Shown here one piece after another: positions 934-6,273 of a stretch of DNA of 50,059 bases (position 1 is the stretch's first letter; the number at the start of each line of letters is the position of its first letter). Origin of the DNA: Bacteroidota bacterium (GTDB lineage Bacteria > Bacteroidota > Bacteroidia > Flavobacteriales_F > PHOS-HE28); NCBI GenBank assembly GCA_018266475.1, contig JAFEAI010000171.1, forward strand, positions 1 through 50,059, given 5' to 3'. Below the pieces are notes generated by a model. The model worked only from the letters and a program-made list of their open reading frames with translations, did not search any database and was not told where the DNA came from. A program made the translations under genes and the position numbers.

Positions 934-966
934 GCGCAATGTGACATCCCCCCGTTCCCAATTGTT

Positions 967-1148
967 GGCGCGGATCTGCGATCCGTGACCAATTGTAGGG
1001 CGGATCTGCGATCCGTGACATGGATCTGAACCTCCGTTAGCGCGGATGTTCCATGAATTGCTGGCGCGGATCTGCGATCCGTGACCCTTGTTGGCACCCT
1101 TGCTGGCGCGGATCCCGCTAAGGCGGGACAGGTACTGCGATCCGTGAC
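967..1148. repeat. Cluster of four REP-like palindromes
   Basis: Four same-orientation copies of a short repeat with consensus GGCGCGGATCTGCGATCCG followed by TGAC lie at 967-989, 998-1019, 1063-1085 and 1105-1148. The core CGGATC-TGC-GATCCG is palindromic. The last copy is expanded in its centre by a second nested hairpin (CCCGCTAAGGCGGG) plus a few bases. Further copies lie around the RAYT gene in this window. The surrounding 400 bp have no gene. Confidence 0.85.
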
Positions 1149-1165
1149 TTGGATTTGTTGGGATT

Positions 1166-1303
1166 CTTGTTACCCTGCCGGAACACTACGCCCACAGCAG
1201 TGCCCGTGCGGAGGGCCGCCTGAAGATGGTTTATGATGAGCGATGAAGCGGCCGGAGGCCAAGGTGAAAGAGGGCATCCCGCAGCAGGCGGGATGCCGGG
1301 AGG
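1166..1303. repeat. 138-bp accessory-module repeat, copy 1
   Basis: This is the first of four equal-length copies. It runs from CTTGTTACCCTGCCGG to GATGCCGGGAGG and ends in a hairpin with 10-bp arms (GGCATCCCGC / GCGGGATGCC), which is perfect in this copy. Unlike the other three it lacks the 30-bp promoter-bearing extension at the 5' end. It lies 32 bp before the antitoxin ATG of the RelE/ParE-type module. A 26-codon frame ending in ...VYDER-stop is kept open through it. Confidence 0.85.
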
Positions 1304-1335
1304 TGCTTTACCTTTACGGCACGAAACCATCGGCC

Positions 1336-1602
1336 ATGACCGCAATCGACATCCGCACCGCCATTGAACGGGAGATCAAGACCATGCGCAGCGCATCGAA
1401 GCTGGAGCAGATCTTCGAGTACGTGTACCGGGTCAAGCATAACCAAGCGGAGCCGGATGAAGATGCCGAGTACAGCGCCAAGGAAGTGGCCGAACTGGAA
1501 AGGCGCTTTGAGGAGCTGGCCACCGGCACGGTGAAAGGCCACAGTGCGAAAGAGTCCATCCGCTTGATCCGCAAGGTGGGCAAGGCACTGGCCAAAGCAT
1601 GA
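1336..1602 (+). CDS. Antitoxin of a RelE/ParE-type toxin-antitoxin pair
   Basis: This 88-residue acidic and basic mixed helical protein has the segment YSAKEVAELERRFEELATG near the middle. It would neutralise the toxin by direct binding and probably repress its own promoter. Its TGA stop overlaps the toxin ATG (ATGA), the usual arrangement of such pairs. The ATG at 1336 was preferred over an upstream in-frame ATG at 1243, because the extra residues would be coded by the dispersed repeat. The function comes from the gene pairing and the downstream toxin, not from a strongly recognised antitoxin domain. Confidence 0.7.
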   Translation: MTAIDIRTAIEREIKTMRSASKLEQIFEYVYRVKHNQAEPDEDAEYSAKEVAELERRFEELATGTVKGHSAKESIRLIRKVGKALAKA

Positions 1603-1892
1603 AGTATGTGCTGGATGTTCACCCCAGGGTGATCAAGGAGGCTGCTATCATCTATGCTTATCGGGAGGGAGAGAAGAAGGGATCCGGTGATCGCTTCATC
1701 GATGCCTTGGTGGATTGCTATGCTCGGATCACTGCCAACCCGTATGGTTGTCAAATACGCTTCGGCGAGTTCCGCCACGTGATGTTGCACAGGCTCAGAT
1801 ACAGGCTCGTCTATCGCGTGGAAGGAACTGTGGTCTACGTGGTGCAAGTGCGCCACACCAACCGCAAGCCCAGCAAGAAGTTCGGGCCGTAG
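1599..1892 (+). CDS. RelE/ParE family toxin
   Basis: This 97-residue protein has the family plan: an N-terminal helical part (HPRVIKEAAIIYAYREGEKKGSGDRF), then strands including FRHVMLHRLRYRLVYRVEG and the C-terminal VVYVVQVRHTNRKP. The family contains ribosome-dependent mRNA interferases (RelE) and gyrase poisons (ParE); sequence reading alone does not decide between them. It overlaps the antitoxin by 4 bp, so the two are translationally coupled. The pair follows repeat copy 1 and is followed by another REP-like palindrome. Confidence 0.85.
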   Translation: MKYVLDVHPRVIKEAAIIYAYREGEKKGSGDRFIDALVDCYARITANPYGCQIRFGEFRHVMLHRLRYRLVYRVEGTVVYVVQVRHTNRKPSKKFGP

Positions 1893-1915
1893 CTCACTTC
1901 ACTGACTGAATTGCT

Positions 1916-1938
1916 GGCGCGGATCTGCGATCCGTGAC
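1916..1938 (+). repeat. REP-like palindrome, single copy
   Basis: This is a full copy of the GGCGCGGATCTGCGATCCG plus TGAC repeat, 23 bp behind the RelE/ParE toxin stop. It is in the same orientation as the upstream cluster. The next 60 bp hold two more GC-rich hairpins (CCCGC-loop-GCGGG and CCGCC-TCG-GGCGG) that recur elsewhere in the island. Confidence 0.8.
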
Positions 1939-1998
1939 CTGGATGCCCCGCTTGGCAGCGGGATGCCCTACACTGCATCCGCCTCGGGCGGGCTCCCG

Positions 1999-2060
1999 AT
2001 CCCGGCGCTCGGCTTAACCAGTAATGTCAATGATCTGCCGAGTGCCCAGCACTTAATCCG
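1999..2060. repeat. 62-bp hairpin module A, copy 1
   Basis: This module recurs at 3561-3622 and, with a diverged 3' end, at 3802-3853. Its core is a stem of GGCGCTCGGC and GCCGAGTGCC (one mismatch) around a 23-nt AT-richer loop containing TTAACCAGTAAT. It sits directly upstream of the promoter-bearing repeat copy 2. I see no coding potential in it. Confidence 0.75.
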
Positions 2061-2078
2061 TCTCAGGCGGCCCCCCGG

Positions 2079-2246
2079 TACCTTCACACTCCGCCGATTA
2101 TTGAGGTCCTTGTTACCCTGCCGGAGCACTACGCCCACGGCAGTGCCCATGCGGAGGGCCGGTTGAAGATGGTTTATGATGAGCGATGAGCAGGCCGGCG
2201 GCCAAGGCGGAAGTGGGCATCCCGCAGCAGGCGGGACGCCGGGAGG
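2079..2246. repeat. 168-bp accessory-module repeat with promoter box, copy 2
   Basis: The 3' 138 bp (from 2109) match copy 1 without gaps. The 5' 30 bp are shared with copies 3 and 4 and begin with TACCTTCA, which resembles the -7 box seen before many genes in this window. The hairpin arms near the 3' end carry one mismatch here (A against C). The repeat ends 70 bp before the antitoxin of the VapBC-like pair and so probably supplies its promoter. Confidence 0.85.
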
Positions 2247-2316
2247 GGGAAGCCTTGGCGTTGTCACTCCGATCGGGTAGCACAGCCGTAACTTTACCGC
2301 ACTGAACCAAAGTTCG

Positions 2317-2487
2317 ATGACCACCATCCTCACGCCGACCACGACGCGCAAGCAGCTCGCGGCCTTGCTCAAGCGTACGCGCAAACGCAAGCGCAGAGGC
2401 GTGGACGTGAAGAGCTTTAGCGGAACGATTTCGCTGAACGAAGATCCGATGGTGATCCAGAGGCGTATGCGCGATGAGTGGAAGTAG
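2317..2487 (+). CDS. VapB-like antitoxin of a PIN-domain toxin
   Basis: This 56-residue protein starts with a very basic segment (RKQLAALLKRTRKRKRRG), which would bind DNA. It ends with a toxin-binding tail of the type GTISLNEDPMVIQRRMRDEW, similar to tails seen in Bacteroidota antitoxins paired with PIN toxins. It overlaps the toxin gene by 14 bp in another frame, which indicates translational coupling. The assignment rests on size, charge layout and gene order. Confidence 0.75.
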   Translation: MTTILTPTTTRKQLAALLKRTRKRKRRGVDVKSFSGTISLNEDPMVIQRRMRDEWK

Positions 2488-2848
2488 GTTCCTGCTGGAC
2501 ACGAACATCGTGCTGCGCGTCCTGAATGGCAATGAGGGCTTGAACAACCTGCTGGACGACCAGGACCTTTACTTGGCACAGATCAGCCAGTTGGAACTAC
2601 TGAGCTATCCGAAGATCACCGAAACCGAAACGTTGTCGATCCAGCGGTTTATCGCGCAGATGCCCATCGTGGAGATCAACGCGACGATCATGCAAGAGAC
2701 GATCCGCTTGCGCAAGACCTACAATATCGGTTTGCCGGATGCCATCATCGCGGCCAGTGCGCTCTTCCTTGATATCCCCTTGATCACTACGGACAAGGGC
2801 TTCAAGCGTGTAGAGAAAGAGATCGAGCTGTATCTGTACACACTATAA
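2474..2848 (+). CDS. vapC: VapC-type PIN-domain ribonuclease toxin
   Basis: This 124-residue protein has the complete PIN acidic set: D9 in LLDTNI, E41 in ISQLELLSY, D89 in GLPDAIIAASA and D107 in TTDKGF. PIN toxins of this kind are Mg-dependent RNases that cleave tRNA or rRNA when the antitoxin is lost. Length and motifs are normal, so the toxin looks intact. The gene lies inside the antitoxin-toxin pair headed by repeat copy 2. Confidence 0.9.
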   Translation: MSGSRFLLDTNIVLRVLNGNEGLNNLLDDQDLYLAQISQLELLSYPKITETETLSIQRFIAQMPIVEINATIMQETIRLRKTYNIGLPDAIIAASALFLDIPLITTDKGFKRVEKEIELYLYTL

Positions 2849-2988
2849 GCAAGAATGCGTTACGTGCAGGGTCCCCAATGCGGATCTTGCGTCATTGCAC
2901 CCAACACGCACTCGGATGCCCGTTGATCACTGTGTCCCGCTTGGCAGCGGGATGCCCTGCACTGTATCCGCCTCGGGCGGGCTCCTGC

Positions 2989-3156
2989 TACCTTCACACT
3001 TCGCCGATTATTGTGGTCCTTGTTACCTTGCCGGAGCATTACGCCCACAGCAGTGCCCATGCGGAGGGCCGGATGAGGATGTTTTACGATGAGCGATGAG
3101 CAGGCCGGTGGCCAAGGTAGAAGAGGGCATCCCGCAGCAGGCGGGACGCCGGGAGG
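2989..3156. repeat. 168-bp accessory-module repeat with promoter box, copy 3
   Basis: This copy has the same layout and exact length as copy 2, again starting with TACCTTCA and ending with the GGCATCCCGC hairpin. It is preceded by a CCCGCTTGGCAGCGGG-type hairpin and CCGCC-TCG-GGCGG. It ends 26 bp before the ORF6N gene fragment. Copies 3 and 4 are closest to each other in sequence. Confidence 0.85.
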
Positions 3157-3182
3157 GGACCGGTTCCATCCAGGGGGATGAA

Positions 3183-3560
3183 ATGCCGCGACACACTACG
3201 TTTACCAACGACATGAGCAAGAGCACGAAGCAACATCCGACCATTGCTGATGAGCTGGTGATGGGTAAGATCTACACGATACGCGGCGTGAAAGTGATGC
3301 TGGACCGGGACCTGGCGGACCTGTACGGGTTGGATACCAAAAGGCTGAAAGAAGCGGTCAGGCGGAACAAGGAACGTTTCCCCGAGGACTTCATGTTCGA
3401 GATGAACGCCGACGAGTTCCAAAATTGGAGGACGCAGATTGCGACCTCCAATCCGGGGGACCGGATGGGCTTGCGCTACGCCCCGTTCTGCTTCACCGAA
3501 CACGGCGTACTGATGCTCCCCAACCCGCCGCTCGGGTGTAAACGTGCGGCCCTAACGTGA
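3183..3560 (+). pseudogene. ORF6N-domain protein, N-terminal fragment
   Basis: The ORF6N domain (a DNA-binding domain of phage and accessory proteins) is clear from IRGVKVMLDRDLADLYG through LKEAVRRNKERFPEDFMFE to FCFTEHGVLML. Full-length relatives continue with a conserved segment and a C-terminal region; here the reading frame leaves the family at LML. It then runs into a dispersed repeat (3518 onward) before stopping at 3560. The gene is therefore cut at the repeat boundary and probably non-functional. An alternative start is the ATG at 3213 (MSKSTK). Confidence 0.8.
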
Positions 3561-3622
3561 ATCCCGGCGCTCGGCTTAACCAGTAATGTCAATGATCTGC
3601 CGAGTGCCCAGCACTTAATCCG
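3518..3622. repeat. Extended hairpin module A, copy 2 (truncates the ORF6N gene)
   Basis: The module begins with CCCCAACCCG, continues through GCTCGGGTGTAAACG and GGCCCTAACG, and then carries the 62-bp hairpin unit seen at 1999. A near-identical extended copy starts at 3761. The left border coincides with the point where the ORF6N protein departs from its family. It therefore marks an insertion or a recombination junction. Confidence 0.75.
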
Positions 3623-3760
3623 CCTCAGGCGGGCTCCTGCTACTTTCGTCATTCCATGAGTGAACACCTCCCACTAGCGCGTGTGTCCACGCATGTGCCC
3701 GCCACCCCCCCTGCGCCACCCCCCCCTGAAAAAACCCTTCTGAATTTCGCTGCAGCCATG

Positions 3761-3853
3761 CCCCAACCCGCGCTCGGGTGTAAACGCGCGGCCCTAACGC
3801 AATCCCGGCGCTCGGCTTAACCAGTAATTCCAATGATCTGCCGAGTGCCCGGC
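3761..3853. repeat. Extended hairpin module A, copy 3
   Basis: This shares the CCCCAACCCG start and the GGCGCTCGGC / GCCGAGTGCC stem with the copy at 3518, then diverges. It is followed at about 3870-3900 by a TGAGC...GCTTGCCGAAGGG-type hairpin common in environmental genomes. Between copies 2 and 3 (3623-3760) I see a C-rich stretch, a TACTTTCG box and no gene. Confidence 0.7.
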
Positions 3854-3916
3854 CCACCAACCGCCACACCCTGAGCCCTGAGCTTGCCGAAGGGTCGAAG
3901 GGCGGCGGGCTCCTGC

Positions 3917-4084
3917 TACCTTCACACTTCGCCGATTATTGGGATCCTTGTTACCTTGCCGGAGCACTACGCCCACGGCAGTGCCCATGCGGAGGGCCGG
4001 ATGAGGATGTTTTACGATGAGCGATGAGCAGGCCGGTGGCCAAGGTGAAAGAGGGCATCCCGCAGCAGGCGGGACGCCGGGAGG
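3917..4084. repeat. 168-bp accessory-module repeat with promoter box, copy 4
   Basis: This is a full-length copy with TACCTTCA at its 5' end and the GGCATCCCGC-type hairpin at its 3' end. It lies 108 bp before the AAA/DUF4143 gene, which also has its own promoter-like 39-nt element closer to the start. All four copies are on the same strand as the gene they precede. Confidence 0.85.
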
Positions 4085-4151
4085 GGATGCCTGTGGTAAC
4101 ATGGGATTGAAACAAGACGGTGTGGCCAAGCTCGCTGCGGGCTCAGGAATC

Positions 4152-5531: not shown

Positions 5532-5575
5532 GGCGCGGATCCCGCTAAGGCGGGACAGGTACTGCGATCCGTGAC
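5532..5575 (+). repeat. REP-like palindrome with nested hairpin, just upstream of the RAYT
   Basis: This copy is split in the middle by CCCGCTAAGGCGGG plus ACAGGTAC, exactly like the copy at 1105-1148. Both also share a preceding GTTAGCGCGG-type segment. It ends 25 bp before the RAYT start codon, so it lies in the transposase leader region. Confidence 0.8.
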
Positions 5576-5588
5576 CTGGATCAACCCT

Positions 5589-5596
5589 TACTTTTA
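5589..5596 (+). promoter_or_regulatory. Possible -7 box of the RAYT gene
   Basis: TACTTTTA fits the TAnnTTTG type with one mismatch and lies 4 bp before the GTG start codon. If used, the mRNA would be leaderless. Confidence 0.35.
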
Positions 5597-5600
5597 TCTC

Positions 5601-6134
5601 GTGAGCCGCAAGTACAAGATCCATGACCAGGAAGACCTGCACTTCTTGACCTACACTGTCGTGGACTGGGTGGATGCGTTGAGCCGTCCCCAATACAAGG
5701 ATGTGATCGTGGAGAGCTTGGCGCATTGCCAACGCGAAAAAGGGCTACTGCTCTATGCGTGGGTGATCATGAGCAATCATGTTCACCTTATTGCAAAGGC
5801 ACATGGGGGGAACAAGCTGGAGGATATCATGCGGGACCACAAGAAGTTTACTGCCAAGGCAATGATAAAGGCCATCGCCGGTAATCATCAAGAGAGCCGC
5901 AAAGAGTGGATGTTGCCATTGCTGCGTGAACGCGATGGATCGATCCACTTCTGGCAGCACGATATCCACCCGGTCTGGCTACGCAGCCCGGAGGCGATCA
6001 TGACCAATTTGAACTACATCCACATGAATCCGGTGAAGGAAGGATTGGTAGATGAGCCTCACGACTACAGGTATTCAAGCGCAAAGGCCTATGCGGGGAT
6101 GCCCGCGATGTTGAAAGTGGAAATTTTGATGTAA
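5601..6134 (+). CDS. REP-associated tyrosine transposase (RAYT, Y1/IS200-like)
   Basis: This 177-residue single-strand DNA transposase of the Y1 family has the HUH metal-binding motif in SNHVHLI (His60, His62). A candidate nucleophile is Tyr139 in NYIHMNPVKEGLV, the segment where RAYTs carry it. RAYTs cut and join REP palindromes rather than ordinary IS ends. The GTG at 5601 was chosen because the following residues SRKYKIHDQEDLHFLTY match the usual N-terminus of Bacteroidota members; an upstream GTG at 5571 would lie inside a palindromic repeat. The gene is flanked by palindromes of one family on both sides. Confidence 0.9.
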   Translation: MSRKYKIHDQEDLHFLTYTVVDWVDALSRPQYKDVIVESLAHCQREKGLLLYAWVIMSNHVHLIAKAHGGNKLEDIMRDHKKFTAKAMIKAIAGNHQESRKEWMLPLLRERDGSIHFWQHDIHPVWLRSPEAIMTNLNYIHMNPVKEGLVDEPHDYRYSSAKAYAGMPAMLKVEILM

Positions 6135-6149
6135 TGAGTGGGTGGCACG

Positions 6150-6214
6150 GACACGGATCGCAGATCCGCGCCAACAAGTTCCATGCTTGTTGGCGCGGAT
6201 CTGCGATCCGTGCC
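6150..6214. repeat. Inverted pair of REP-like palindromes (REPIN-like)
   Basis: One copy on the minus strand (6150-6172) and one on the plus strand (6192-6214) face each other. They are joined by CAACAAG-ttccatg-CTTGTTG, so the whole unit can fold into one long hairpin of about 30 bp of stem. It starts 15 bp after the RAYT stop. Paired, inverted REPs of this kind are what REPIN elements mobilised by RAYTs look like in Proteobacteria. Confidence 0.85.
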
Positions 6215-6273
6215 GTTCCCTGTTCACGCGCCGTTCCCTCCGGCCGTTCCCTCAGTGCCGTCCCCGGGAACGG

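Follow-up and report, generated by a model that had tools for sequence, protein, structure and literature searches.

The window, that is, the whole stretch of 50,059 nucleotides analyzed here, makes up the entire contig C79 of a genome that spans 3.57 Mb in 283 contigs. Its forward strand encodes, at 5601–6134, a Y1 HUH transposase of the REP-associated tyrosine transposase type (RAYT, or TnpA-REP), recognized through Pfam, NCBIfam and structural matches. Mapping of palindrome copies in the window confirmed what an earlier note on this DNA had described: one palindrome copy lies in the leader of the Y1/HUH gene, an inverted pair follows the stop codon, and five further copies are present at 967–1938. 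The note placed the copies correctly, but it lumped together a short and a long form of the palindrome.

The transposase and its flanking hairpins

The encoded protein (P0001) is a RAYT with features of TnpA-Y1 subclass 2.6. It contains NHVH at residues 69–72, WQ at 128–129, YIHMNP at 149–154, and YSSA near the C-terminus, in likeness to the NH[LIV]H, WQ, and YIH[QN]NP-type motifs and the C-terminal SS motif published for this subclass, although it has an M before NP where Q/N is published (Quentin et al., 2018; PMC6006769). The distance between the HuH motif and the tyrosine is about 82 a.a. in the published subclass 2.6 and 80 in P0001 (80–87 in relatives, with two outliers). The sole Pfam domain found is Y1_Tnp (27.2 bits), and the NCBIfam model for REP-associated tyrosine transposases, NF047646, is matched with 101 bits (cut-off 80), as it is by all 87 aligned proteins. 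Residues H70, H72, W128, and Y149 are invariant over these 87 proteins, and the catalytic residues are intact. The best PDB match, both by sequence and by fold (E-value 1.2e–8, searched with a predicted model of P0001, pLDDT 89), is 4er8, a complex of E. coli TnpA-REP and its REP hairpin. Two observations favor 5601 as the gene start: relatives have a conserved MSRKYK start, and in the G041 homolog an in-frame TAG lies upstream of the start. The closest named record is from the Flavobacteriales MAG BAC5 (90% identity).

Two other class memberships were considered and rejected. For the IS200 transposase equivalog model NF033573, P0001 scores 23 bits, below the cut-off of 55, so a pure IS identity was rejected as a membership and kept as a rival on mechanism. 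A TIRYT (subclass 2.1), which would have a C-terminal HTH and long terminal inverted repeats without hairpins, was rejected because Y1_Tnp is the only domain and the ends are hairpins. The locus has the arrangement by which a REPtron is recognized, namely a RAYT between palindromes of which further copies are scattered over the genome, and flanking hairpin copies are conserved at the RAYT loci of relatives.

The short form of the hairpin reads GGCGC-GGATC-TGC-GATCC-GTGCC/GTGAC. On the forward strand it occurs at 967–989, 1063–1085, and 1916–1938 (covariance model R1 matches at 959–994, 1055–1090, and 1908–1943, respectively), the last of these shortly after a ParE-type toxin gene. The copy at 1000–1017, also on the forward strand, has a degenerate foot (R1 12.1 bits) and is the sole copy with GTAG ahead of it, in agreement with the earlier note, which had found this tetranucleotide before one copy only. 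In the long form, an extra inner hairpin CCCGCTAAGGCGGGACAGGTAC is placed between GGATC and TGC. This form is found on the forward strand at 1105–1148 and in the leader of the gene at 5532–5575, where the inner hairpin lies within the tip and the whole hairpin 25 bp before the start codon. Behind the gene, an antisense hairpin at 6150–6172, 15 bp after the stop codon (R1 match 6145–6180, 28.9 bits), is followed by a sense hairpin at 6192–6214 (R1 match 6184–6219, 33.7 bits), the second half of the inverted pair. The pair has 27-bp perfectly complementary arms (6152–6178 and 6186–6212), 7 nt apart, and its strand has a predicted fold of -39.5 kcal/mol (z -14). With at most 3 mismatches allowed, 18 matches occur in the window (2.1 by chance), and the gapped pattern has 7 matches (0.00 by chance); an Rfam search of the window matched no family. 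The inner-hairpin repeat CCCGCTNANGCGGGACAGG is found in 18 of 45 genus genomes, and as the inserted sequence also stands alone in the genus, the long form resembles one repeat nested in another. The composite long-form REP recurs in three species (window 5532–5575 and 1105–1148; contigs C15 and C75 of G028; contig C32 of G038).

The inverted pair had been called REPIN-like in the earlier note. A true REPIN population, in which the mobile unit is an inverted doublet of fixed spacing, would be consistent with the perfect 27-bp pair behind the window RAYT, with a similar inverted pair behind the G028 homolog, and with two further possible inverted pairs of a second tip family (C236, C86). The orientation counts speak against it, as the 13 pairs of neighboring GGATC-family copies less than 150 bp apart in the own genome comprise 12 direct and 1 inverted. 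The REPIN reading was rejected on these counts and is quite improbable; arrays, rather than REPINs, prevail in the own genome.

The hairpin skeleton around Bacteroidota RAYTs

About 100 RAYT loci were sampled from the genus and from further Bacteroidota (96 of them in the flank-sharing test), and the relatives' records are nearly all Bacteroidota by title. An exact word of at least 15 nt is common to both 250-bp flanks at 68% of the 96 RAYT loci, in contrast to 0.8% of 487 shifted controls, and the same architecture is seen from Pontibacter to Bacteroidales.

In these sequences, the hairpins have a common skeleton: (i) a 5′ CT; (ii) two covarying pairs; (iii) CGC opposite GTG; (iv) a variable 5-bp tip; and (v) a T-initial loop. 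The stem and foot of the skeleton were selected during the building of the alignment (A1), and a stem listing and base counts serve as unbiased checks. The listing took in every 5-bp stem in 400-bp flanks, with no sequence assumed and the expectation drawn from control tiles. CGC..GTG (CAC..GCG on the other strand) was the most enriched stem-flanking trinucleotide pair in this listing, with 100 occurrences vs. 9.2 expected, and the perfect CGC..GCG occurred 18 times. When stems are chosen by CGC/GTG alone, with none of the counted bases as a selection criterion, the base immediately 5′ of the outer two foot bases is T in 82 of 86, C stands ahead of that T in 70 of 86, G stands ahead of that C in 52 of 86, and the loop opens with T in 85 of 86. 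The two outer pairs of the foot vary in concert (GG/CC, AG/CT, AC/GT, CC/GG, GC/GC), and the covariation score is 0.593 vs. 0.211 shuffled. The G.T position is a wobble in the sense strand and an A.C mismatch in the antisense strand, which makes the strands unequal; in the predicted DNA fold it is paired in the sense strand and open in the antisense strand. Upstream hairpins are mostly sense (36, vs. 12 antisense) and downstream hairpins mostly antisense (30, vs. 8 sense), with the downstream antisense hairpin of relatives at a median of 13 bp after the stop codon.

The strict short-loop CGC..GTG form is fitted by 42 of 100 loci, the remainder deviating through a long inner loop or a different foot. 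Different feet are seen with some 2.6-like RAYTs, for instance the GTAGCC hairpins in G002, G014, and G021, with no or few R1 matches. A GTAG or GTGG tag at the 5′ hairpin foot is absent from the foot profile, the single degenerate copy aside in the window. Thus, of the statement that no fixed GTAG-type tag precedes the palindrome, the absence of GTAG stands, whereas a fixed CT plus CGC/GTG foot does exist; the CGC..GTG enrichment and the fixed T, C, and loop-T counts led us to reject the reading that there is no rule.

The tip follows the enzyme. On the RAYT tree, the 5-nt tip requires 15 changes for 14 states, while shuffles require a mean of 23.8 and a minimum of 19 (0 of 500 as low). The outer two foot base pairs, on the other hand, show no fit to the same tree (12 changes, shuffled mean 13.3, 67 of 500 as low). 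Since the hairpins sit beside the gene, linkage, with common descent of a single locus, may account for part of the match between tip and tree. Stronger evidence comes from single genomes with several RAYTs that differ in their hairpins: the three RAYTs of Pontibacter mucosus (L147, L153, and L171) have three different hairpins, and in the own genome the C79 and C30 RAYTs have different hairpins.

These data also bear on the possibility that the palindromes act as transcription terminators or are repeats independent of the RAYT, which would then lie among them by chance. Such repeats would be expected where the copies are found, in intergenic regions and often just behind stop codons, and copies are present in RAYT-less genomes as well. 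Chance placement is nevertheless difficult to reconcile with the extent of flank sharing, with a different hairpin in each RAYT lineage that tracks the RAYT tree, and with an architecture that is the same from Pontibacter to Bacteroidales; nor is there a conserved T-run after the hairpin. We consider this the least probable of the alternatives.

Copies in the genus and probable movement as a unit

The own genome contains 20 exact copies of GCGGATCTGCGATCCG (0 in the reversed control) and 26 matches once the long form is allowed, of which the one on C172 looks like chance. The GGATC-tip hairpin thereby amounts to about 25 copies, spread over 5 contigs, and one more on C275, while the window RAYT is single-copy. 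With covariance model R1, 33 hairpins are detected in the own genome (E ≤ 0.01); they fall into two tip families, GGATC (that of the window RAYT) and GAGCG-TCCA/TCTC. The second family, GAGCG-TCCA/TCTC-CGCTC, has the same foot and is scattered in the own genome (L214, L215, L216, L217, L221); a RAYT with this tip exists in a relative (G033).

Across 45 genus genomes, the exact 15-mer is found in 6 of 6 with a close RAYT (a homolog of 66–90% identity, counting a 90% fragment in G019), at 1 to 22 copies each, and in 8 of 39 others, at 1 to 5 copies (Fisher p = 0.0004). The earlier note had proposed checking whether palindrome abundance follows the RAYT and had named equal abundance in RAYT-less relatives as evidence to the contrary. 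Such an association holds in that all six RAYT genomes carry the palindrome, and falls short in that some RAYT-less genomes do too: four genomes carry 2–5 copies without a close RAYT (G004 5, G008 3, G007 2, and G023 2), which suggests that copies can outlive or precede the gene. The match between palindrome and RAYT is thus specific, though not exclusive. In close homologs the palindrome lies in the leader and behind the stop codon, whereas more distant RAYTs of the genus have other hairpins at those two places. A GTAGCC-TGY-GGCTAC hairpin is present in 13 of 45 genus genomes and absent from the own genome.

Among 31 genomes of one genus that are at least 90% complete, R1 matches average 11.1 per genome with a 2.6-like RAYT and 2.6 without (16 and 15 genomes, p = 0.03), and in the same 31 genomes they correlate with RAYT number (Spearman 0.51, p = 0.003); these genomes are related and the statistics ignore phylogeny, and many genomes are MAGs with gaps at repeats. 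Widening the search to the order brought in no further genera.

Comparison with relatives indicates that the gene and its hairpins have changed places together. In a BLAST search of the window against a 90%-identical relative (G032), only 5562–6170 aligns, to the exclusion of neighboring genes; the AAA/DUF4143 gene that precedes the RAYT and the Cys/Met PLP enzyme gene that follows it are both absent from the relative's locus. The right ends of homology lie 3–10 nt past the hairpin foot in 7 of 10 measured pairs, and the left ends show more scatter, which is partly due to the variable position of the upstream hairpin. Moreover, one Bacteroidales MAG holds two units (L140 and L141) that are 98% identical over 726 bp and 47 kb apart, with the left junction at AT-GGCGC; as both lie within one assembled contig, an artifact is unlikely but possible. 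Homology that ends near hairpin feet at non-syntenic loci, together with this pair, suggests that hairpin, RAYT, and hairpin moved as a unit. The surroundings of both L140 and L141 carry a CCTTCGACAAGCTCAGGATGACA repeat, on either strand.

An autonomous, undomesticated IS200-like insertion sequence would also move in this way. The element would then be the hairpin-RAYT-hairpin unit, and the dispersed palindromes its solo ends or MITE-like remnants; interspecies homology that stops at the hairpins, the lack of synteny of the units, and the two nearly identical units in one genome all agree with this. Against it, the window RAYT is single-copy while its hairpins number about 25, the IS200 equivalog score is below the cut-off, and the hairpin clusters are direct arrays and not pairs of ends. 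The ends of IS608-type elements are both read on one strand, whereas the hairpins here are inverted around the gene. An insertion sequence of this kind is judged unlikely, though it deserves more credence than the other alternatives.

A probable Bacteroidota-type REPtron in relation to known systems

We consider it likely that the locus is a Bacteroidota-type REPtron, in which a subclass 2.6 RAYT lies between inverted cognate hairpins of the form GYT-GGCGC-GGATC-TGC-GATCC-GTGCC. The gene family, the architecture, the skeleton, its covariation, the tip-RAYT correspondence, the genome association, and the non-syntenic units ending at hairpins were computed directly; binding, the cleavage site, and the roles of the wobble, loop T, and tip are what we infer. 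The hairpin would fold when its strand is single, for example on the lagging-strand template. The constant foot (5′ CT, CGC opposite GTG with the G.T wobble, and the first loop T) would be read for family and strand, and the 4–6-bp tip would be read by the RAYT, which would thereby pick its own REPs. The HUH/Tyr149 site could then nick beside the 5′ CT and join strands, and nicking and joining would copy or move REPs and, at times, the whole hairpin-RAYT-hairpin unit. More tentatively, and with rather more doubt than conviction, the Bacteroidota RAYTs may form a third REP superfamily beside GTAG and CGTC, in which the foot would set family and strand, the tip would be a co-evolving specificity code, the unit would still be moving, and REP-bounded cassettes such as ParE toxin-antitoxin pairs might possibly arise.

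Subclass 2.6 is found mostly in Bacteroidetes and, by a table in the same paper, corresponds to Bertels group 5; its flanking hairpins lack GT[AG]G and have copies elsewhere in the genome, and the main text describes these structures, found by manual inspection, as "atypical" and weak (Quentin et al., 2018; PMC6006769). The earlier note had judged a Bacteroidota REPIN system with a different recognition rule worth describing; a Bacteroidota setting, an own palindrome, and the lack of GTAG are all borne out, but the existence of such systems was published in 2018 (PMC6006769). In contrast to the main text of that paper, which gives no rule, the present analysis describes a CT / CGC-GTG / loop-T skeleton, tips specific to each lineage, and mobile units, although the skeleton rule may already be visible in the published subclass 2.6 data (PMC6006769). 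A literature search for the foot sequence returned unrelated papers only.

The E. coli TnpA-REP (4er8; subclass 2.2, PMC8266576) shares with P0001 the Y1 HUH fold and REPs flanking the gene, and the E. coli GTAG REPs share with the present hairpins a strand asymmetry, a stem irregularity, and a CT dinucleotide beside the hairpin. On the other hand, the GTAG-contacting residues E100, H101, and R104 of E. coli TnpA-REP correspond to P, I, and S in the family profile, in agreement with the report that subclass 2.6 is unconserved in the GTAG-recognition region (PMC6006769), and the hairpins differ from E. coli REPs in having no GTAG, a G.T wobble where those have the AA/GC bulge, and a short modular tip. 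In other RAYT groups, recognition depends on a stem irregularity, on bases of the loop, and on GTAG, processing is confined to the sense strand, and the cut is made at CT (PMC8266576); the skeleton has counterparts to these determinants in the wobble, loop T, and CT, and none for GTAG. The CGTC-tagged REPs are short tagged palindromes, Bacteroidetes included, without a dedicated transposase (Di Nocera, 2013; PMC3733652), whereas the present hairpins have a different tag and an adjacent RAYT. With IS200/IS605 elements (IS608, ISDra2), for which loop or stem T contacts are known (PMC8266576), the catalytic core is in common, while the score for the IS200 equivalog, the inverted hairpins, and the excess of hairpins over genes set the locus apart.

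A group known in the literature only as "atypical" is thereby given a searchable, testable rule. A fixed foot with swappable tips provides many natural enzyme/substrate pairs, some in one genome (Pontibacter mucosus), which let recognition by tip, wobble, and guide be separated. The data further suggest continuing movement of some RAYTs as whole units, a point of relevance to the question of RAYT domestication.

Hairpins also lie near 6 of 10 ParE loci of the own genome (C79, C138, C183 twice, C86, and C275). In the genus, 4 of 30 fetched ParE loci have R1 matches of at least 24 bits in 90 kb, where about 0.15 matches are predicted from the genus density (271 matches in 45 genomes, about 1.7 per Mb). 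At window 959–1943, L048 2751–4453, L047 2089–3115, and L253 1034–1386, ParE-type toxin-antitoxin genes of the own genome and of some relatives have hairpins on both sides or close behind, and in G030 a hairpin begins about 20–30 bp behind the toxin gene. A flank-sharing test of ParE loci gave few palindromic words, which indicates that these loci are not generally bracketed by matching hairpins. The proximity could be simple co-location in accessory regions, and REP-bounded cassettes are possible as well. In the window, a 206-nt repeat occurs four times at 1100–4086 with a spacing of 910–943 bp, like a cassette array, alternating with small genes (a ParE pair, PIN, ORF6N, and AAA/DUF4143), and at 407–729 a 160-bp unit is tandemly duplicated with 94% identity.
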